Assembly: GCA_947579605.1 (NCBI GenBank)
Contig: OX388318.1
Location: forward strand, 6,944,001 to 7,008,000
Reading direction: 5' to 3'
Length of the DNA stretch: 64,000 nt
Source of the DNA: Athripsodes cinereus
Lineage: Eukaryota; Arthropoda; Insecta; Trichoptera; Leptoceridae
Shown here: piece after piece, positions 2,101 to 53,880 of the stretch
Layout: every line of letters begins with the position of its first letter
How positions within the stretch are numbered: position 1 is the stretch's first letter
Program-made: the position numbers and the translations under genes
The notes under the pieces: model-generated
Told to the model about the DNA's origin: nothing
The model's input: only the letters and a program-made list of their open reading frames with translations
Database searches by the model: none

Positions 2101-3643
2101 TTTTTCTTATTAATAAACTTGGATCAAATTACGCATCCGATAAACCTGGGATTTGATAAAAAAAATTATGAGAGACTTGCCTCGATCGATCGCTGATTGT
2201 TAATTTACCTTTGTTGATCCGCATCTATTTATAAGATTGTTTGAAGTTAAATTATATTGAAGTTTTAAATGACAACCGAAAGAATAAATCTACAAGCAAT
2301 ATAAACAAAAAATTAATTATAAAAAAATTGTAATAGAGAAACTATAATAGTTTTTATCTCTTAATACACAATTTTACTTACTGCAAATGCAAAGTTCATA
2401 ATATATTCCAAAAAGCTACTAATAAAACCATGATAGTTTACGTTAACTTGTTCAAAAGATATTTCATGTGTATAAATGCATATTAATTCATGTATTTTGC
2501 ATATTACGTAACTCAATACTCTTTTACGCTCTCTGATACAATACTATATTAATAAGCAATATTATTATAAACATAATTAGCAATATATAATATATACCTC
2601 TTCAATATATTATGATACCATCAATATACCAAATATTTTTTCATCCTTTAACAGTCTTTTCAAGAGCACAGGACATTGGTTAACAGACATATGTACCTTC
2701 CATCAGCACAGGTTAATTTTTGATCAATTAGTTTTACTTTATCTCATAGCTGATTTTTTGCCTGTGAAACCATAAGTCATTTGATTGCATAATTAAAAAA
2801 AAGAAGTAAATAATACAGATTTTTTGTGGTAGGTACTAAGTAAGTACCTACATAAAATTAATTTAAAATATTATAACGCGATGTTAAGGATTCATTCCAT
2901 GTTTAATTTTAATGATTTTTGAAAAAATAAGTAAAAAGTAACAAAATTTATAAACAAAAAAAAATAGTAGAAGGATATTGTTTATTTTTATGTTTTGTAC
3001 ATTGTACTCCTTCTTTCAGTGTTTTTGTAAATTGGGTATAAATTTTTATATCAAAATGTGGTGCTAACATTTATAGAAATAATTTAATTGATAGTTATTT
3101 ATTTTGTTTATACATCATCGTTATAAATCAAAATAAACAAAACAATGGAAGATATGAAAAATTATAATGGTGACGAGATTATCACTATAATATGATTATC
3201 TAACCGCTGTAACCTAATGTTAAGTAAATAAAATATTTTCAATTTAGGTAAATTATATCCAATTATTTTCTTTTTGCTCAAGTTAATACTGATAGATCAT
3301 TTACACAGCTGATAACTCAGCGTAAAGTGCTATTCATTTGCTTATGTAAATAAGTGAGAATATTTTTTTAGTTTGGTCTTGGCCTATTGGTTTTATTTTT
3401 TGTCAGGACTTAATAAGACAAAAAGAATAAAAAATTTAATGTCATTTGACTATGTTAATTTATAATTTTTATGATTTCCTTATTTTAGTGTTTCCATCTA
3501 TAAAAAAATAATTCCGATGTGTCATTACGATCTCCTCATCCTGTTTTTAATCATTATTTGTAACCATAGTTTAAATAATTATTCTTAAAAGTTTTAAGTG
3601 AAAAATGAGAGCTTGTAAATATTCTGTTTATAATAAAAATATT
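2101..3643. other. gene-free AT-rich intergenic DNA
   Basis: I see no supported gene, structured repeat or RNA here; only short A/T runs and chance reading frames. Confidence 0.6.
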
Positions 3644-3807
3644 ATCAGAGCTGCCCACAGATAATTGTTAATGTGTTACTCAATATCAGAGCTGGCCACA
3701 GATAATTGTTAATGTGTTACTCAATATCAGAGCTGGCCACAGATAATTGTTAATGTGTTACTCAATATCAGAGCTGGCCACAGATAATTGTTAATGTGTT
3801 ACTCAAT
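3644..3807 (+). repeat. 41-bp tandem repeat, four units
   Basis: Exactly four head-to-tail 41-bp units begin ATCAGAGCTG and end TTACTCAAT. The first has one C/G difference (ctgccc against ctggcc); the rest are identical by eye, so the array is young. Confidence 0.93.
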
Positions 3808-8054: not shown

Positions 8055-10774
8055 CTTTATTATTATTTTTATTGTTTGTGGATACTATTAACTTGCTGAT
8101 TTTCTTTATGTTTCGTAGTTGTCAGATTTGACACAATTTCAATAAATTCTGATGTCAAAATACTTGAATAGTGACACATTTTTTTACCTTTCTCATCCAT
8201 AAATAATAATGATTCTATTCTGTTAATTAAGTACCTATAGACTAAGTTCTTATAGAATATACAAAATACAATATGTAAACCAGTCACTGCTTCCTACGGA
8301 GCAATTTCTAGTATTTTGTAGCATAAGCTAAGTTGGGATGTCCAGAAACTTCTTTTAGGAATTCAAGCTAGTGAACCCGAGGGTCGTCGTTACTGGAGTC
8401 CCTGGAGACAGGACAACACAAAGAGGAAGAAACAAGTTCGCCAGCGATAGCCACTATCACACAAGGGAAAAGCAACCATCAAGCTTATCTAGATAAACCA
8501 GGGCTAAGCCCGACTCATGCAAAAGATACCACTGATCACTGAAACACCCAGACATCTATAAACTCCAAGAAGGCCTTGAAATTCCTTAGACAAATCATCA
8601 GTTCCCCAGACCATTTGGGTCTGAGAGTATTATCACTCATATTCTCAATCATCACATCTCCCCCGCAAACTGAGTTCCAGTCTAACAAGCACACCATGAA
8701 TTATCTGCCAGCACTAGCTCAAATACCTTTATCTTTAGGTCTCCATGGCCCGTTACCAATTGCAGGTAAAGTGATTGAAAGACAGGACACCCTTTTAATG
8801 CTCTCTGTTACATCCAGGAGAAAATAGTAGACAAGCCCTCTTTCCTGCCACACATCCTCTCTGATTAATAGTAGTAATCAAAATATTACCCAAAATCATA
8901 GTATATCTTTGCCCATAATTTATTTTTTCCTAATCTTATAGATTCCCTACTAGAAAGTGAATACATATGTACATATTTTTTGGCTGAGCTGTTTTTTTTC
9001 TACAAAAATCCTAGTTAGCAATAATGTGTATCACATAATATCACAGTGTACTATATTATAATATTACAAATCTATAGTATCCTATAGACATAACAATAAT
9101 CATACCAATGATACATCGATGGCTAACTGGACAAATATTGTATATCCACTTTTTTTAATATCATTGCCTTGTACATTTTGAGAGATAACACATATTTATA
9201 AATCTGATAGAAAGTTGAGAAGTGTATGGTCGAAAAAAAATAATGAAATACTGCATCATAAGACTTTTAAATTTAGAGGAAAGAAAAATAAAATATGACT
9301 GAGTGGAACACAGGATAATAAACTATAGACTTAATATTACTGCTATCTGCTGACTGTTATACCCCTACGGCATGTCGAACAAATAATAAGCATGCGGATT
9401 GTCCCCTTCGTGCCAATAAAAATAAGACATTCAGGATTCTTTCGTTTTTCCGTGGAGCACTTGGCAAATAAGTGGTCTCCAACTCTTCCGTAAGTTTTCA
9501 GGTGTTCGAAAAAATAAAGACACATAAAATTTTAAATTCCAATTATCTTAATTTTTTGTTGGCACAGAAAGGATGGCTTGCATGTTTATTAGTGAACTAG
9601 CTACCCACTTGTGGGATGTACTGTGATGGTGTGGAATAGTACATTCAGAATAGGTACAAATTGTAGTATGTATTATGTAAAGTTTTGAGACCATTTGCCT
9701 ATTCCATGACATTCGATAACTTATGGAAAATAGTAGGAGAATATTTATTTCTTTTTATTATTTACTATACATTGATTACAAGCAAATTCGTATTTTATTT
9801 TTCCTTCTTTATAAATTTGCGTTATCTCTCGAAATGTATAACTGTATAAGGCAATGAACAAATCATAAATAAACAAAACGAATAATGCGCCACCGTTACA
9901 AACGAAAAAGCTTCAGGCGTCCGTCTGTAGAGGGTCCCGGCGTCGAAAATTTTAAAATTGCTGTGAATACAAGGCTATCCCATAACAATGTGTCAACACC
10001 GGATATTTTTTCATGCCGAGTGCCGAAAGTAAATTAAATAACGGCTATATTACCGATATCAAATAATGTAATGTAATAATGTGAACCTTTCTTTTGTCTC
10101 TATTTTTAAAGTTAATTAATTTTGCTTACCTACGCTTAAAAATTCTACCCTCCCGGTGTCAGATTTTCAAAATGATTTAGGAATTTGTTTTTATCGATGT
10201 TATTTTTACTACCAGCTAAGTGATTAACCATTGCATAAGGTTAAATACATAGACATACGTTAAATATGTAAATTTAACACATGAAACTGCCATTATATAA
10301 GATTTAGAATTATTTGGTAGTGCCCCGTACGGGATTAGGACCCGTAATATTTCAATATACAATTATTATACTCTATGCCGTAACCGTAACACATCCTTTT
10401 CGCGGGGTGCTGGGCGACATGTCGAAGGCTCCGAATCTCCGATATTCTTTCTAATAAATCCCGAAGATAGCTTCATAATATTGTGTAGGTATTGTTCTGA
10501 GATACAAGGAAGATTTTTGAAAGACAGTTACAATTTTTTCCAAATCTTTGTAGTCAATAGTAACGGGTATTACATAACGGATAGGTATCGGATTTACATC
10601 ACTACTCCGTACATTTTTATCCTCTTTGTGGAACGGAATAACTGTAGATCTCCGTAAATTTCGGCTTATTTATTTCTATAAGTCTGCTGTTTGTGAAAAT
10701 TTTCTATACAACAATAATTATATTGAAGTGAAGTGAAGATAAGGCGTGTTTTTTCTAAATAATTAAATTGTACA
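8055..10774. other. intergenic region with repeat fragments
   Basis: No supported gene. The less AT-rich block 8330-8830 has no long frame and may be old retroelement. 9343-9530 resembles the SINE-like family at 20629-20880 in rearranged order (gacattcagga, cttccgtaagttttc, ggtgttcgaaaaa). The few hundred bases before 10775 should hold the promoter of the second sHSP; TATAAG sits at 10677-10682 and I see no multi-unit heat-shock element. Confidence 0.5.
9117..9160 (+). mobile_element. solo terminus of a small DNA transposon (MITE)
   Basis: TCGATGGCTAACTGGACAAA and the following bases up to 'ccacttttt' match the left terminal inverted repeat of the complete MITE at 47400-47650. No second terminus is found nearby, so this is a relic or partial copy. 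Confidence 0.7.
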
Positions 10775-12792
10775 ATGTCGCATCATAATATTATATCTGA
10801 TACCGATGACGCTATGATGCATTGGTCTGTTGCTCCTCTCTTCTCCAGGGATTGCTATACTCCATGGAGGGCCCCCGCGAGACCTTCTCCATATCACGAT
10901 GTCATCACCAATGTAATAGCCGGTAAATATCTAGACTAGATGAACTATTCAAAAAAATTATTATGAATTTTCAAGTTATATTTATGTGAATATGTAGTTT
11001 TCTACCTGAGAAATGATAATCCATCCAAAATAAGATGATTTAACGCACACAAAATTAATTATTTGCATATTTTGCACACGATTTACACATCACAATCAAA
11101 ACAAGTATCTGACGCCATGTTGACACAAAAATATAGGAAATGAATTGCAGGATTACCAATATGACAAAAACAATGCATACCATAGAGAAAAATGATAAAT
11201 TTTCAATAAAAAAATTAATTAAATCCATAAATACCATATATATCACTAATTTTATAAAATTAAAGTAATAAATGTGTTTTTGCATATATTAGCACCGTAC
11301 TACCTAACAAACCTAACCCGCAATCAGTCAACGTAATAAATGTGTTTTTGCATATATTAGCACCGTACTACCTAACAAACCTAACCCGCAATCAGTCAAC
11401 GTAATAAATGTGTTTTTGCATATATTAGCACCGTACTACCTAACAAACCTAACCAGCAATCAGTCAACGTAATAAATGTGTTTTTGCATATATTAGCACC
11501 GTACTACCTAACAAACCTAACCAGCAATCAGTCAACGTAATAAATGTGTTTTGCATATATTAGCACCGTACTACCTAACAAACCTAACCCGCAATCAGTC
11601 AACGTAATAAATGTGTTTTTGCATATATTAGCACCGTACTACCTAACAAACCTAACCCGCAATCAGTCAACGTAATAAATGTGTTTTTGCATATATTAGC
11701 ACCGTACTACCTAACAAACCTAACCAGCAATCAGTCAACGTAATAAATGTGTTTTGCATATATTAGCACCGTACTACCTAACAAACCTAACCCGCAATCA
11801 GTCAACGTAATAAATGTGTTTTTGCATATATTAGCACCGTACTACCTAACAAACCTAACCCGCAATCAGTCAACGTAATAAATGTGTTTTTGCATATATT
11901 AGCACCGTACTACCTAACAAACCTAACCCGCAATCAGTCAACTTATTAAATGTGTTTTTGCATATATTAGCACCAGACTACCTAACAACACAAATACAGT
12001 ATATAAGAAAAAGGATTTATAATAATAATATGAGGTATGTCTATTTTCAATTTAATAAATTGTAATAATTTTCCCATTTCATTATTTTGACTTTTTTCCC
12101 CATTGTCTAATTTTGACTTCCGTTGTATTTTGTCCAGTAAACATTGTTTTTGTTATGTTGGTAACAATGAACCATTTCTCTGTGCAAATTTCAACATGGC
12201 CCCCGATATTTATAGGATACTTGTGATACGTCAAGGGCATACGAAAAATGCAAATATTTATTGTTGTGCTTAAAAAATCCACAATTGTGCGACGGATTCT
12301 TGTTCTCCAGGTTGAATACTACATATCTACATAAAAATAGTTCAATAATATCAAGTATTTATGCGTTCATTAAAACTAGATAAGTTCCTAATAGCCAACA
12401 AGAACCAATACCAAGTCTGCATGGATGTCCATCAGTTCGCACCACATGAAGTAGTTGTGAAGACTGTGGGAGATCTAATAATTGTGGAAGGGAAACATGA
12501 AGAAAAGCAGGATCATCATGGATACATCTCCAGACATTTTATTAGGAAATATAAGTTGCCCAAGGATCATGAAGCTGATGATGTTGTTTCCAGCTTGTCT
12601 TCTGATGGTATTTTGAGTATTATAGCTCCGAAGAGGAATCCCGATGCTTTAGAAGGTGAAAGAATCGTTCCTATACATGTCACTGGACCTGTGCACAAGA
12701 CAATAAAGAAAGATAGCCACAATCATCATTCTAGACATCATAAGATAGAGAAACCACAAACACATCAGATTCATGTCCAGCACTTGCATTAA
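10775..12792 (+). CDS. small heat shock protein (lethal(2)essential-for-life type), split by a transposon used as an intron
   Basis: Predicted exons are 10775-10922 and 12395-12792, giving 181 residues. Exon 1 encodes an sHSP N-terminal arm (VAPLFSRDCYTPWRAP). Exon 2 encodes the whole alpha-crystallin domain (YQVCMDVHQFAPHEVVVK, VEGKHEEKQD, YISRHFIRKYKLP, SSDGILSI), a VPI motif and a His-rich tail. Between them lies a 1467-bp element (10922-12388) flanked by the 8-bp duplication TAATAGCC (10914-10921, 12389-12396). Removing the element and one duplication gives an uninterrupted 180-codon sHSP frame. In the present sequence, donor G/GTAAAT at 10923 (element end) and acceptor TAATAG/CC at 12394 (target duplication) restore the frame with one extra alanine. 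Without splicing, translation stops eight codons past the target duplication. A shorter 143-residue frame starting at the ATG at 12361, inside the element end, is also open. Whether splicing happens is inference. Confidence 0.8.
10922..12388 (+). mobile_element. non-autonomous DNA transposon, copy 1, 8-bp target duplication
   Basis: The element is bounded by TAATAGCC on both sides. Its ends are imperfect inverted repeats: GGTAAATATCTAG...ATGAAC at the left and, reading inward from the right, GGAACTTATCTAG...ATGAAC. Weaker inverted similarity continues inward (…TGTAGTTTTCTACC… against …TGTAGTATTCAACC…). It has no transposase. An internal 68-bp tandem array makes up almost half of it. Homologous to 23090-24610 (inverted). 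The 8-bp duplication fits hAT, P or Mutator-like superfamilies; which one is unresolved. Confidence 0.9.
11265..11990 (+). repeat. 68-bp tandem repeat, ten units plus a degenerate eleventh
   Basis: Ten units run from 11265 to 11942 (eight of 68 bp, two of 67 bp lacking one T), followed by a partial diverged unit to about 11990. Each unit contains gcatatattagcaccgtac and cctaacaaacctaacc. Units 3, 4 and 7 carry 'ccagc' where the others have 'cccgc'; the order of variants (units 4-6 and 7-9 repeat the same three-unit pattern) suggests a 203-bp block duplication. It lies inside the transposon, hence within the predicted sHSP intron. Confidence 0.95.
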
Positions 12793-12954: not shown

Positions 12955-13195
12955 CATAAAATAACACCCAACCAACCCTAACCTAAACTACAAATCAGTC
13001 AAACTTAAAAATTTAAGTATACCTACTTGTGACATGTCAAACGCGTGTGAAAAATGCAAATAATTTTGTCCTTAAAAAATCAACAAAACTGATTCTTACT
13101 CTCCATGAAAAATGCTACATACATATCTATAAAAATAATTGATGTTTAGATACGTTCATGTTATTTAGAAAAAATCTATGGTTATCTATGTTTTT
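12955..13195 (+). mobile_element. diverged right-end relic of the 8-bp-duplication element
   Basis: The order of blocks follows the right third of copy 1: an array-like part (ccaaccctaacc … aatcagtca), then cttgtgacatgtcaaacg, then gtccttaaaaaatcaacaaa, ctacatacatatctataaaa and a terminal 'gatacgttcatg' matching ATGCGTTCA near 12361. Confidence 0.65.
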
Positions 13196-15075: not shown

Positions 15076-15377
15076 TGTAGAATAGTTTGGTTGTCCCTGG
15101 AAAGTTCGTGAATAAATTCTATAATTCAGTGGAAATTGACAGATCATTCTGGCCTCAAACCAAACTTAATCCAACCGCCATCTATGTTAATTTTTAATAA
15201 CTGTCATGTGCTTCGAGAAAATTCCGGAAGTTTTCCTTCGATAAAATTTCATTTTTCTATCCTATTTGTTTAATAAAAACATACATTTTTTACTCATTTA
15301 ATTCTTATGGTGTATAATAATAAAACTGAATAAAATGTATCGTTTAATTGACAAGTTTGTAGATTGACATCAAAAAA

Positions 15378-15417
15378 GAATCTTCCAGAATTTTCTAGTA
15401 GTTTTTCTAGAATGCTC
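15378..15417 (+). promoter_or_regulatory. two heat-shock elements upstream of the third sHSP gene
   Basis: 15378-15395 reads GAAtcTTCcaGAAttTTC, four perfectly alternating HSF half-sites. 15405-15417 reads TTCtaGAAtgCTC, two perfect half-sites and a third with one mismatch. The clusters lie about 50 and 20 bp upstream of the TATA box, the usual arrangement for strong heat-inducible genes. Confidence 0.9.
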
Positions 15418-15537: not shown

Positions 15538-16053
15538 ATGGCATTGTTTTTGTGGCAAAAACCATCACAAATCTGCGGACAACATTTCGGCCAGGGACTT
15601 GATCCAACCCAAAACACCCAACATTATTTGAGACCCTGGAAATCTATCTCAAGATCCACATCTCGCCAGGATGCCGGTTCGAAAATATCTTTGAATAAAG
15701 AGGGTTTCCATGTTTCTCTGGATGTCCAACACTTTGCTCCAGAAGAAATCTCAGTGATGGCTGTCGGAAATGAAATCGTGATTGAAGGAAAACATGAGGA
15801 AAAACAGGATGAACATGGATCTATTTCGAGACATTTTATGAGAAGATATATCTTGCCAGAGGGACATTCTTCTGATGACATTGTCTCTAGTCTTTCATCT
15901 GATGGGCAACTCACTATCACAGCTCCGAAAAAGAAAATTCCAGAAACACAGGAGAGAGTTGTGCCAATAAAACTCACAGAAGCTCCACACAAACCTGCTA
16001 CAGCCAAAGAAGAAACGAAGACTCCAATGCAGGACTCTAAACCAACACAATAA
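15538..16053 (+). CDS. heat-inducible small heat shock protein, lethal(2)essential-for-life type
   Basis: A single-exon 171-residue Hsp20 protein. The N-terminal arm carries the FGQGLDP and LRPWKSISR patches typical of insect sHSPs. The alpha-crystallin domain covers about residues 52-130 (FHVSLDVQHFAPEEISV, IEGKHEEKQDEHG, ISRHFMRRYILPEG, SSDGQLTITAPKK). The C-terminal extension has a VPI motif at 142-144 and a polar Lys/Thr/Glu tail. By family it binds unfolding proteins as oligomers. Paired heat-shock elements, TATA and initiator lie directly upstream, so strong heat induction is expected. It is the closest relative here of the split sHSP gene 2.7 kb upstream, consistent with tandem duplication. 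The frame is intact. Confidence 0.97.
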   Translation: MALFLWQKPSQICGQHFGQGLDPTQNTQHYLRPWKSISRSTSRQDAGSKISLNKEGFHVSLDVQHFAPEEISVMAVGNEIVIEGKHEEKQDEHGSISRHFMRRYILPEGHSSDDIVSSLSSDGQLTITAPKKKIPETQERVVPIKLTEAPHKPATAKEETKTPMQDSKPTQ

Positions 16054-20061: not shown

Positions 20062-22321
20062 TCATGAAATTTTTATATAAGATGCTTGAAGAAATAATCT
20101 CGGCACATCTACACCCTCTCTGACATTAGTGGTTCTACGTTTCACATAACCTATTCGTTCTTCTTTAAGTCCTACATTTTCCAATAATGTCCTCATTTCT
20201 TCTAAAGTAAAGAAATAACTCAATGTGTTATCTTGTCTCAAATATAAATTGTCTTGTATCTTATGCCCTGGGCCAAAACGTAATTGTGTCATATCGTAGC
20301 GAGCATAGTCTCTTAAAAAAAATCTTCCTCCAGTACGTAATGCATGCACCAGCGTGTTAATACAAGAAAGATGTAGGTTTGGAGGTAGTGCTGAGAGGAG
20401 GAATATGGCTGTGATAGCTCCAACTCCTTCGGAACCTATTTCATTCATTACTTTATCTCCATCTTCACATAAATTAGCCTGCAAAAAATATATGTATATA
20501 TTTAAATTAAGGGGAATATTTAATTCATGGCACCATAATTTATGCATCATTCAAAATCAAATTTTTTGCCAAATCATTGTTTCTTATTCTTAGTGTATGA
20601 AAAGGTAAATCTAATTGGCTAAAATAAAACTACTAGTACTATACCATCACGGCATATCCCACAAGTGGGGTAGCCAGTAGACCAGCTGCATGTAAGAAAC
20701 ATGCAAGCTGTCCTCTTCGTGCTAATATAAAATCAAGACATTCAGGATGGGTGGCAAACCTCATCGCTAAATATAAGATGTAAAATGTCTTAATTTTTCG
20801 AACACCTGCCTTTTACAGGACACTCGAAAACTTACGGAGAAGAGTGGGAGACCAATTTTTTACTGGGTGCTCCACGGGACCAAAATAAATCCAGTTGACT
20901 AATTAAGAAAGAACAAATATAGAAAATGTTTCAAAAGTTTCACTATGACTACAGACCAAGTGCTAAAAAAGTTGCCTTTAAACTTATTAATTCTATAATG
21001 TACATTGATTACATTTTTTTTATAAAGAATAATAATAATAATATTGTCAATTTATGTATGGGATTATTTAGTGATCTATGAACATATACTCAAAAAAAAT
21101 ACATACATATTAAATACAGTCAATAAACAGAGGGTGAGTTTATCACAATGGTGCAATTGAAAACTAATTATTATCACTTTACCTGGAAAGCCCTAAATTC
21201 AGGTTCACAATACTGAGGATTTCCCCTAACAATATCAACAGCCCTGGGAGAAATATCACAGGCATAGAGAGGTCTCAATTTGGGAAGTTCTTCAGACAGA
21301 GGAAACAATAGTGCACCCGCTCCACACCCAGCTTCTAAAAGACCTCCTTTAATGTCTTCTAATTCTGGAAATTCACGTAGAATCCAGTGTCGATTTTTAA
21401 AAAACCTAAAAAGTTATTTATATTAAAATGAGAAAATAGAGACATTGGGTATGTGCCCTGGTTATAGTTGCACATAGAGAGTAGTTAATTCGTCATAGGC
21501 GAGCACCATTTACTGAATATTCCATAGACATAGTAAAAAAATAAAAGCATGCGAGAAAATGCTTAGAATAATGTGCAAACTTCACGTCGTTAGTTGTCTA
21601 CTAAATGCTTCACCAATCTTTTTTCATACGTTACTTGAAAACTACATCCTATTTCATCCTCTGGAATAGAATAGGTCTCCCACTCTTTTCTATCCGTTTT
21701 CGAGTATTCCGTAAAAAGTAAGTGTTCTTAAAACATCAGATTGTCAGGGTACACGGCAAAAACAGGCTCATTGACAAATTATCATTTTACAGGAGAGCAA
21801 AATATAAAGTTTGAGACATCATTTCAATGTGATTTACAATGAAATGGGCCAGGTTTTTTACATTTTACTCATACCATTCTAAAGAACTCATTGAGGGGAA
21901 AAAAATGCATTTAAATCACGAAAATAAATCAATGAGCTTGTTTTTGCCGTGTACACTTCATATAATATATTTAATCCAACAGTGATGAGGTATGGCATCC
22001 ATCCTGAATGTTATATTTTATTACAACGAAACAATCTGAATATTTATTAAATGCAGTTAGTTTGCTGCCTGTCCTTAACGAGGATTAAAAGAAATTCTCG
22101 AACCTGTCACCATTCCTCTTATAAAAAAGATCCCAGTGTTTCTTTGTTTCCTTTAATGCTTGTACTGCCCGAGCTGAAGGGGCTAAGCGACTTTGTTGCC
22201 GCTCCAAAGCAGCTTCTTGTGACGGATCTAATTCTGGAAGTTCACTATATAACACATCTACTTCATTGGACCACGTCTCTTCACATTCATCGTTTTTAGC
22301 TGGATTCGACTCACTCTCCAT
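20062..22321 (-). CDS. METTL6: METTL6/METTL2-family tRNA 3-methylcytidine methyltransferase
   Basis: Predicted exons on the minus strand are 22321-22104, 21405-21183 and 20478-20062, giving 285 residues, close to METTL6 length and shorter than METTL2. Residues 60-80 (KKHWDLFYKRN … RFFKNRHW) are the family signature. LLEAGCGAG (95-103) is SAM-binding motif I, followed by ACDISPRA (121-128) and, further on, AIFLLSALPP, GGRFFLRDYARYD, LRFGPG and YLRQDNTLSYFF. The family methylates C32 of tRNA anticodon loops (METTL6: tRNA-Ser) using SAM in cytosol or nucleus. The first splice (22104/21405) is needed to rebuild RFFKNRHW; its donor is AG/GTTCGA, a weak site. Intron 1 (21406-22103) and intron 2 (20479-21182) each hold a transposon. 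METTL2/8 remain alternatives. Confidence 0.92.
20629..20880 (-). mobile_element. SINE-like retroelement with ACT-repeat tail, copy a
   Basis: About 250 bp beginning at an (ACT)n-like run, then accatcacggcatatcccac, gacattcaggatgggtggca, cacctgccttttacaggaca and ending tgctccacggga. Near-identical copies lie at 27266-27497 and 53163-53412, all with the microsatellite at the left, so the element's 3' end faces left. Located in intron 2 of the METTL6-like gene. Confidence 0.85.
21749..21954. mobile_element. 206-bp MITE in METTL6 intron 1
   Basis: Terminal inverted repeats of about 26 bp: GTACACGGCAAAAACAGGCT from 21749 and the inverse ending at 21954, with one mismatch in the first 26 positions. 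No coding capacity. Confidence 0.92.
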
Positions 22322-23089: not shown

Positions 23090-24610
23090 GGAATTTATGA
23101 AGTTGCTGTGAACGCATAAATACTTGATAATTTTGAATTATTTTTATGTAGATGTATAGTATTCAACCTGGAGAACAAGAATCCGGCGCATAATTGTGGA
23201 TTTTTTAAGCACAACAATAAATATTTGCATTTTTCGTATGCCCTTGACATATCACAAGTATCCTATAAATATCGGAGGCCATATTGAAATTTGTATGGTT
23301 ATCATAATTACCAACATAACAAAAACAATGTTTACTGGACAAAATACAATGGAAGTCAAAATTAAACGGGGTAAAAAGTCAAAATAATGAAATGGGAAAA
23401 TTATTACAATTTATTAAATCGAAAATAGACATACCTCATATTATTATTATAAATCCTTTTTCGTATATACTGTATTTGTGTTGTTAGGTAGTCTGGTGCT
23501 AATATATGCAAAAACACATTTATTACGTTGACTGATTGCGGGTTAGGTTTGTTACAATTAAACAATTAATTACTAGTTATAAATAAATCCACACTTTATC
23601 AACCAATCCTTGACTAATTTTTTTGCAATGTTTTTACTCTTGCATTTCTTAATAGATGCCGGCATCATATTAAGTATTTTTGGCACGTTATACTCCAATG
23701 TTCTTTTTCCGTACTTATTATTGAATTTTGGCACTACATATCCTTCATTAAATTTAAATCTAGTGTGATGCAAATGACGCGGTTTATCTTTATACTCGGT
23801 TTTCGAAAACTGGTCAAGAACAATTCTCTGCCAGTACAAGCCTTTAGCAGATAACACATTTAACTTTTTAAAGTACAAAGAAATATCATTTCGCGCCGCG
23901 TTACAAATTTGCTCATTTACTAAAAGTCTTAAGATCGATTTCTGTGCGAACATTACTCTTTTCAAATTAGTATTAGTGCAATTGCCCCAACTACTAATAC
24001 CATATCTAATCAACGATTCTGCCAAAGACTTGTATACAGTTATAAGTGTGGACCTATGTAGGTACAAAATATTTTATTCTATAAAACATACCACCTATAC
24101 ATCGTAATCTTTTACAAATACTATTTACATGTAGGTCCCACTTAAATCTATTATCTATAGTTAAACCTAAATATACAAATTTATTTACAATACTTATGAC
24201 CGGACAATCGCAAGACATGGGGAGCTCAACATTTTTATGTATGCACCCATAATCATGAGAGACAATTCCAGGTGTCACACCATCCGCCGCGTTACTGGAT
24301 TTATGGATTGAATTAATTTTTTTTATTGAAAATTTATCATTTTTCTCTATGATATGCATTGTTTATGTCATATTGGTAAACCTGCAATTCATTTCCTCTA
24401 TTTTAGTGTCAACATGGCGTCCGATACTTGTTTTGATTGTGATGTGTAAATCGTGGACAAAATATGCAAATAATTAATTTTGTGTGCATTAAATCAACTT
24501 ATTTTGGATGGATTATCATTTCTCTGGTAGAAAACTACATACTCACATGATTATAACTTGAAAATTCATAATAAGTTTTTTGAATAGTTCACCTATCCTA
24601 CATATTTACC
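23090..24610 (-). mobile_element. non-autonomous DNA transposon, copy 2, 8-bp target duplication
   Basis: Inverted homologue of 10922-12388. Ends are GGAATTTATG at 23090 and …ATATTTACC at 24610, flanked by TTTTTTTC at 23082-23089 and 24611-24618, an independent 8-bp duplication. Both flanks match copy 1 (the cctggagaacaagaatccg block near 23170 and the block near 24430-24560). In place of the ten-unit array there is about one repeat unit plus a LINE fragment. Without array and LINE respectively, both copies are about 0.77 kb. Confidence 0.92.
23573..24359 (-). pseudogene. LINE reverse transcriptase C-terminal fragment inside copy 2
   Basis: Two overlapping frames: upstream FVYLGLTIDNRFKWDLHVNS (the YLG-motif region of RT) and downstream VYKSLAESLIRYGISSWGNC, resembling the thumb region of Jockey-like elements. 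The frames are offset near 24060, and there is no RT catalytic core. Sequence up to about 24315 is LINE-derived; the first codons of the upstream frame (about 24300-24359) are transposon sequence shared with copy 1. Confidence 0.75.
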
Positions 24611-27180: not shown

Positions 27181-27265
27181 TCACAGAAAACATATTTTTA
27201 TTTATTCTAAAATCACAGATATCTAATTATTTTATTCTATTATCATAGAAAACAATTTTTTTTTA

Positions 27266-27660
27266 ATACTACTACTACTATACCATCACGGCATATCCCA
27301 CAAGTGGGGTAGCCAGCAGATCAGCTGCATGTAAGAAACATGCAAACTGTCCTCTTCGTGCCAATATAAAATTAAGACATTCAGGATGGGTGGCAAGCCT
27401 CATCGCTGAATTTAAGATGTAAAATGTCTTAATTTTTTCGATCACCTGCTTTTTACAGGACACTCGAAAACTTACGCAGAAGAGTGGGAGACCAATTCTG
27501 GAAGAGGGACGCCTGGGCCGACGGAACCCTTGCGGACGGAAGAACAGTGCTCTTTTTGGCCAAATATCATTGGGCATTCTCAAAACATGTCCCAGCCAGG
27601 ACCATCGCCTCTCCTGTATTACGGAGATTACAGGTCTCTGCTGGGTGCGCCGGCGCATAT
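27266..27660 (-). mobile_element. LINE tail joined to the ACT-tailed SINE-like 3' region
   Basis: 27266-27497 is a copy of the SINE-like family with an (ACT)n tail; directly adjoining it, 27498-27660 is the LINE ORF2 tail (RRWSWLGHVLRMPNDIWPKR). The junction suggests that the 'SINE' is the 3' part of this LINE family, or that it captured it. Confidence 0.75.
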
Positions 27661-53045: not shown

Positions 53046-53162
53046 GATTGTAATCTGAAAATAATGCACACATTGCTTTCAAATAAATTATAATGATAAA
53101 TGGTAATGATTCAAAATAGATGTACCATACTATGTTTCTAGGTACTATCTTTTTTTCAACAA

Positions 53163-53412
53163 TACTACTACTACTACACCATCACGGCATATCCCACAAG
53201 TGGGGTAGCCAGCAGACCAACGGCATATAAAACATGCAAGCTGTCTTCTCCGTGCCAATATAAAATCAAGACATTCAGGATGGGTGGCAAACCTCATCGC
53301 TGAATTTAAGATGTAAAATGTCTTATTTTTTCGAACACCTGCCTTTTACAGGACACTCGAAAACTTAAAGAGAAGAGTGGGAGACCAATTCTTTACCGGG
53401 TGCTCCACGGGA
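53163..53412 (-). mobile_element. SINE-like retroelement with ACT-repeat tail, copy b
   Basis: Starts at (ACT)n, then accatcacggcatatcccac, gacattcaggatgggtggca, and ends tgctccacgggat; near-identical to 20629-20880. Lies in the predicted 5' UTR intron of BDP1 (53055-54118). Confidence 0.85.
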
Positions 53413-53443: not shown

Positions 53444-53764
53444 TTAGTATGGTATAAAAAACGCACAATTATTATTTTGTGCTTTTTTTCCAATAAAGGT
53501 CAAGGGACTTTGCATCTCTTGTATCACCGCGACCATAATAGATCTATTGTGACATCCTTCTGTGTCATATCTCACTCTCAAGATGAGGTGCGTCATGTAG
53601 CTCACTATTTGTCTTGGTGTGAGAAGCCTCACCTTCTCAGAGTCCAGCAGTGGACCACCGAGGATGTGACTTCGGTTGCGAGCGAGTTCATCACAGTTAC
53701 AGAGGACGTGGATAGGTGTTTCATTATCCACTGAACAAAATCTTTTGTGCTTAAAAAAATCCAC
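53444..53764 (-). pseudogene. LINE ORF2 C-terminal zinc-knuckle fragment
   Basis: The frame contains FCSVDNETPIHVLCNCDELA RNRSHILG and LLTPRQIVSYM, matching the 'C-x2-C … E-T-x-x-H-x-L-x-C-x-C-x-x-L-x-x-x-R … L-G' C-terminus of R1/Jockey-type LINE proteins. Only the 3' end is present; the first codons overlap a transposon relic. Confidence 0.75.
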
Positions 53765-53880
53765 AAAATTTTACCGGATTCTTATTCTCCAGGTAAAAAA
53801 CTACATATCTGCATAAAAATCATTTGAAATAATCAAAGTTTACATGCGTTCACATAAACTTAATAATTTTTTTCAAAGAT
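53745..53880 (+). mobile_element. right-end relic of the 8-bp-duplication element
   Basis: gtgcttaaaaaaatccacaa, gattcttattctccaggta, ctacatatctgcataaaaa and acatgcgttcacat follow the order of the right end of copy 1 (12268-12370). Confidence 0.7.

Follow-up and report, generated by a model that had tools for sequence, protein, structure and literature searches.

When a DNA transposon is found inside the coding frame of a small heat shock protein (sHSP) gene, is it removed from the message as a newborn intron, or is the gene simply broken? This question is raised by a locus of the trichopteran Athripsodes cinereus, located in a 64,000-nucleotide stretch of contig OX388318.1 (assembly GCA_947579605.1, positions 6,944,001 to 7,008,000 of the forward strand), hereafter the window, whose own numbering is used throughout. 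A sequence-only reading of the window had proposed that a transposon became an intron of a stress gene here. The birth of an intron is rarely seen with the element, the duplication and the empty site intact, and at this locus every piece is readable. The interrupted gene and the element are laid out as follows.

10775..10921, plus strand: 5' part of the sHSP coding frame, 49 codons, N-terminal region, with 26 of 49 residues identical to the database protein P0002
10914..10921, plus strand: left target-site duplication (TSD) TAATAGCC, exact 8 bp
10922..12388, plus strand: non-autonomous DNA transposon of 1467 bp with TSDs and long imperfect terminal inverted repeats (TIRs, about 250 bp), of which a second copy has its own 8-bp TSD
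11265..11988, plus strand: 68-bp tandem array within the element, 10.7 copies, 98% matches
12389..12396, plus strand: right TSD TAATAGCC, whose AG at 12393-12394 is the proposed in-frame acceptor
12397..12792, plus strand: 3' part of the sHSP coding frame, 131 codons covering the alpha-crystallin domain and the His-rich tail, with 96 of 131 residues identical to P0002

The insertion of a transposon into the sHSP frame is certain. The 1467-bp TIR element and its exact 8-bp duplication, as described before, were reproduced in coordinates, lengths and duplication, and the insertion point was placed just upstream of the alpha-crystallin domain with the element in forward orientation. The TIRs are imperfect, with 10 of the outermost 13 bases matching (counted by eye), while the inverted-repeat arms, element positions 56-254 against 1221-1418, share 67.6% identity over ~200 bp. 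Among the frames of at least 60 aa, the largest lying wholly within this copy (copy 1) encodes 76 aa. With a TSD of fixed length, TIRs and no transposase frame, the element is a non-autonomous cut-and-paste DNA transposon, and its 8-bp TSD and GG termini are reminiscent of the hAT, P, Merlin or Mutator-like superfamilies. A 33-base exact pattern taken from the 68-bp array gave 0 matches in viral contigs and 0 in prokaryote contigs.

Two further copies of the element were located in the window.

23090..24610, minus strand: second copy, flanked on either side by TSD GAAAAAAA, with other sequence in place of its middle
53745..53869, plus strand: partial third copy limited to the 3' end, 77%

Copy 2 runs from 24610 to 23090 between the two halves of its own exact 8-bp duplication GAAAAAAA, and the TSD is thus exactly 8 bp at both copies that retain both ends in the window (2/2). 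The left ends of copies 1 and 2 are identical over nine bases (GGTAAATAT) and the right ends differ at one base in nine (ATAAATTCC versus ATAAGTTCC). Both arms of copy 2 match copy 1 at 92-93%; its tandem-array middle has for the most part given way to other sequence. Since copy 2 has these ends and a TSD of its own, the boundaries of the element are supported independently, without recourse to the sHSP frame. The replaced middle of copy 2 comprises some 744 bp and contains two frames (24054-24359 and 23573-24067), both of which we take by eye to resemble the C-terminus of a LINE reverse transcriptase; a Pfam search of these two frames gave no match. Just 3' of the stop codon of the interrupted gene, at 13024-13140, there is a degenerate sequence related to the right arm, 72% over 127 bp.

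Removal of the element and one duplication recreates the empty site, a frame of 180 open codons, all intact, as had been claimed, and the encoded 180-aa protein matches the HSP20 family of Pfam (PF00011) at 9.3e-25. Of 14 database match sequences examined, only P0002 and P0003 have the N-terminal region in common with the interrupted protein, to which they are 66% and 61% identical; they group with it in a 33-protein tree with support of 100/98, and both cross the insertion point gap-free. These two orthologous proteins make the empty site the deduced ancestral state. When the form with one additional Ala was aligned instead, each score against P0002 and P0003 was 10 lower, which is the cost of one gap. 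An old intron at the insertion site was also considered and is disfavoured by the gap-free orthologous proteins together with the exact duplication, the orthologues being compared here as protein, where an intron position is invisible.

Among the best 120 of 991 protein matches to the interrupted gene, the top identity was 66% (P0002) and the best E-value belonged to P0001 at 49% identity, and the intact neighbouring sHSP reached identities of at most 58% among the best 120 of 518. As the best identities are only 66% and 58%, the species seems to be absent from the protein database, so that a missing spliced product there is uninformative. The nearest named proteins point to an insect host. 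The coding frames of the other two sHSP genes located in the window are each continuous, in agreement, at the level of coding frames, with the description of the relatives as intronless. Clustered insect sHSP genes tend to be intronless according to the cited portion of PMC2745388, so a tolerated intron at this locus would be informative.

Whether an intron is made depends on the sites available to the spliceosome, listed here with the one further reading frame of interest.

10923..10928, plus strand: splice-donor-like site CCG/GTAAAT, element positions 2-7, score 7.72 (metazoan frequency matrix)
12118..12137, plus strand: acceptor-like site TTTTGTCCAG, last base 12137, score 9.44, rank 2 of 55, identical letters in copy 2
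12291..12310, plus strand: top acceptor-like site TTCTTGTTCTCCAG, last base 12310, score 10.27, rank 1 of 55
12361..12792, plus strand: 143-aa frame from an ATG in the 3' end of the element, in phase with the whole alpha-crystallin domain, full HSP20 match at 5.8e-25

Without splicing, the sHSP frame enters the element and stops after five codons (NVIA-GKYLD-stop). The GT at element positions 2-3 and the AG inside the right duplication are present as proposed, and joining 10922^12395 keeps the frame and gives 181 aa with the one added Ala. Splice sites were scored with metazoan frequency matrices that were not trained on the species and were calibrated on n = 4 introns: two in a METTL6-like gene (22103-21406 and 21182-20479, located by homologues, with the join checked) and two in a TFIIIB B'' (BDP1)-like gene (50550-50306 and 50068-49658, with one exon placed via PDB matches and borders set by eye). 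By these matrices, the donors of the four mapped introns scored 5.19-7.77 and their acceptors 2.61, 7.71, 11.5 and 12.14. The element donor falls within the mapped-donor range, ranks second of all GTs between 10775 and the element end and belongs to the top 1.6% of window GTs. Its GGTAAAT is common to both copies retaining a 5' end, copy 2 being identical over GGTAAATAT.

The acceptor side is different. By the same matrices, the in-frame acceptor 12394 (TAATAG/CC) scored 1.09 and ranked 22 of the 55 AGs in 10991-12499, below all four mapped acceptors, the weakest of which scored 2.61, and two AGs lie in the 20 nt before it, versus none in each of the four mapped introns. The CTCCAG of the top-ranking site at 12310 is kept in all three element copies. 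A donor joined to 12310 would give a product ending NVIAG and then a stop; in a message with this junction (10922^12311), the next in-frame ATG would be the one at 12361, which a manual count puts 48 bases from the first base of the stop codon. Joining to 12137 leads to a premature stop as well, with a product of 78 residues. Of the 31 GT-AG pairs by which the C-terminus is restored, 10923/12394 has the top score, so any in-frame product would probably be the one proposed at the outset. An alternative in-frame acceptor, the CTAG at 12379, would add DKFLIA and is missing from copy 2. Neither of the other two element copies lies inside any of the four introns mapped in the window. As a separate observation, the highest-scoring donor-like site of the region, GAG/GTATGT (9.73), is found at window position 12035 inside the element, and it is conceivable that it pairs with acceptor 12137 or 12310 to define a cryptic exon of the element.

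The frame-preserving geometry of the insertion was evaluated by simulation, in which the element was placed forward at 1599 positions within the window's three sHSP frames, the 8 outermost positions at either end of each frame being excluded. An in-frame AG inside the TSD, used with the element's own donor, arose at 223 of the 1599 positions (14%, about one in seven). Admitting every AG that falls in the TSD or in the final 12 element bases raised the forward counts for the three frames to 361/527, 334/500 and 389/572; for reverse insertions the counts were 65/527, 38/500 and 86/572. What makes the forward share high is the donor-to-CTAG distance in the element, which is fixed and frame-preserving. 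If both orientations are equally likely, the prior of the exact proposed configuration would be roughly 7%. Taken alone, the in-frame splice fit is weak evidence for an intron and no stronger than suggestive.

The age of the insertion bears on what the intact frame signifies. Copies 1 and 2 diverge by 6.4% in each arm, and when the changes across 125 aligned columns were polarised by taking copy 3 as the outgroup, 7 were assigned to copy 1 and 3 to copy 2, with 4 ambiguous. If the copy 1 changes came after insertion, the insertion is not very young, the date of copy divergence being a rough upper bound only. For a neutral frame, the chance of having no stop or frameshift was roughly estimated from the substitutions and the four gaps between copies 1 and 2 as about 0.17 at 3.2% divergence and about 0.03 at 6.4%. 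The 180 intact codons would thus mildly favour continued function, and only mildly because the changes on the copy 1 lineage may predate the insertion.

The description as a stress gene holds for membership of the HSP20 family (PF00011) and is weak on heat induction. No perfect three-unit heat-shock element (0 perfect 13-mers) was found in 8055-10775 upstream of the interrupted gene, where two one-mismatch elements occur at 8340 and 10509, whereas the intact sHSP neighbour at 15538-16053 has five perfect, partly overlapping 13-mers upstream (15100, 15212, 15217, 15378 and 15383, spanning 15095-15405). Strong heat induction is improbable for the interrupted paralogue, so that heat-shock RNA-seq, put forward as a check on splicing, may be the wrong test.

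The reading we prefer, though we would call it no better than an even call, is that one sHSP paralogue is present here as a mostly disrupted or hypomorphic allele, perhaps with some in-frame splicing. The DNA transposon would have inserted forward into the sHSP coding exon just before the alpha-crystallin domain, so that a read-through message would terminate after the five element codons. The left end of the element would supply a good donor-like motif for putative use; joining it to either of the best-matching acceptor-like sites of the right arm, 12310 or 12137, would yield a truncated protein, and a minor in-frame product with the additional Ala could result from use of the weak AG within the right duplication. 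A disrupted allele is favoured because the donor is normal but acceptor 12394 scores below all four mapped acceptors and has AGs just upstream, because the acceptors ranking first and second lead to premature stops, and because chance would give the in-frame fit at 223/1599 forward sites. On the other side stand the 180 intact flanking codons with the neutral-decay figures, which mildly favour function, and the 33-protein tree, in which the branch of the interrupted protein (0.29) resembles that of P0003 (0.28), though that of P0002, whose letter make-up was flagged, is far shorter (0.0055). Moreover, one real mapped acceptor is also weak (2.61), and the matrices are general metazoan ones, with n = 4.

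Efficient splicing of the element as a new, introner-like intron, with the acceptor in the duplication or at CTAG 12379 and the sHSP still made, is possible though somewhat doubtful. It would accord with a donor score comparable to those of the mapped introns, with 10923/12394 being the best-scoring of the 31 C-terminus-restoring combinations, with complete frames on either side of the element, weakly with the neutral-decay argument, and with the comparable transposon-made intron of Drosophila sechellia presented in the cited part of PMC3296678, but the acceptor is weak, with two AGs just before it and higher-scoring acceptors upstream, the in-frame fit is common by chance, and the other two window copies lie outside the four mapped introns. 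Of the proposal that the transposon became an intron, the insertion, the donor-like left end and the AG in the duplication stand, while the intron status itself is put in doubt by the weak, outscored acceptor. A shortened sHSP started at ATG 12361, with 12 residues from the element and duplication followed by the whole alpha-crystallin domain and lacking the original N-terminal region, appears unlikely: its 143-aa frame is open with a full HSP20 match and its ATG is also present in copy 2, but no heat-shock element with at most one mismatch, the only promoter signal searched, lies inside the element, and an open stretch of 28 bases easily arises by chance. The insertion might also be polymorphic or haplotype-specific, with other alleles retaining the intact 180-codon gene and splicing unneeded for survival. 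The exact TSD, the intact flanks and the ancestral empty site implied by the two orthologous proteins agree with this, and it is compatible with the preferred disrupted allele, yet as an explanation of its own we consider it very unlikely.

Exonic DNA transposons such as maize Ds and C. elegans Tc1 are spliced out near their ends, with several sites commonly used. Tc1 is spliced out of exons in this way, and Giroux et al. in 1994 are said to have described maize Ds as a 'de novo intron'. The splicing of Ds and Tc1 is documented by RNA evidence; for the sHSP element, the site scores suggest the use of multiple sites. A more general idea, tentative and rather doubtful, is that a long-TIR transposon with the donor G/GTAAAT makes introns in insect genes upon forward insertion with a right-phase AG, the sHSP gene being caught at intron birth with its acceptors competing. 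The locus could reveal which acceptor the spliceosome uses when a strong wrong one competes with a weak right one; if the element is not spliced, it would be an ordinary insertion allele within a redundant gene family.

Transposon insertion is an accepted route to introns, with 35 events tabulated in a 2012 review, Drosophila among the genera in the section cited (PMC3443670). Introners, as presented in the cited sections of PMC9860276, include families that are DNA transposons with TSDs and TIRs; one splice site comes from the element and the other is co-opted at the insertion site, as in Chrysochromulina (Fig. 2C), and certain insertions add codons (Fig. 2F, 2G). The sHSP element is similar in having a TSD and TIRs, a candidate donor from the element and a candidate acceptor from the duplicated target. 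Introner families, however, occur many times as introns, with median lengths of 30-654 nt, and within animals and land plants the same sections give only two groups, both animals (PMC9860276), whereas the element here has a single known genic copy of 1.47 kb and its splicing is predicted. In the Doc1053 intron gain of D. sechellia GM26034, the cited part of PMC3296678 describes a TSD-flanked transposon in a gene with the frame kept; that case involves a retrotransposon and an annotated gained intron, unlike the DNA transposon and predicted splicing at the sHSP locus. Among the papers listed by a literature search, none was seen to report an intron of transposon origin in an insect sHSP gene.

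Repeats were also observed elsewhere in the window. Both introns of the METTL6-like gene (20479-21182 and 21406-22103) carry pieces of one repeat family in opposite orientations, and further members, up to 94%, occur near 9384-9630, 27264-27499 and 53158-53412. A tandem array with a 41-bp unit (4 copies, 99% matches) lies at 3643-3807.
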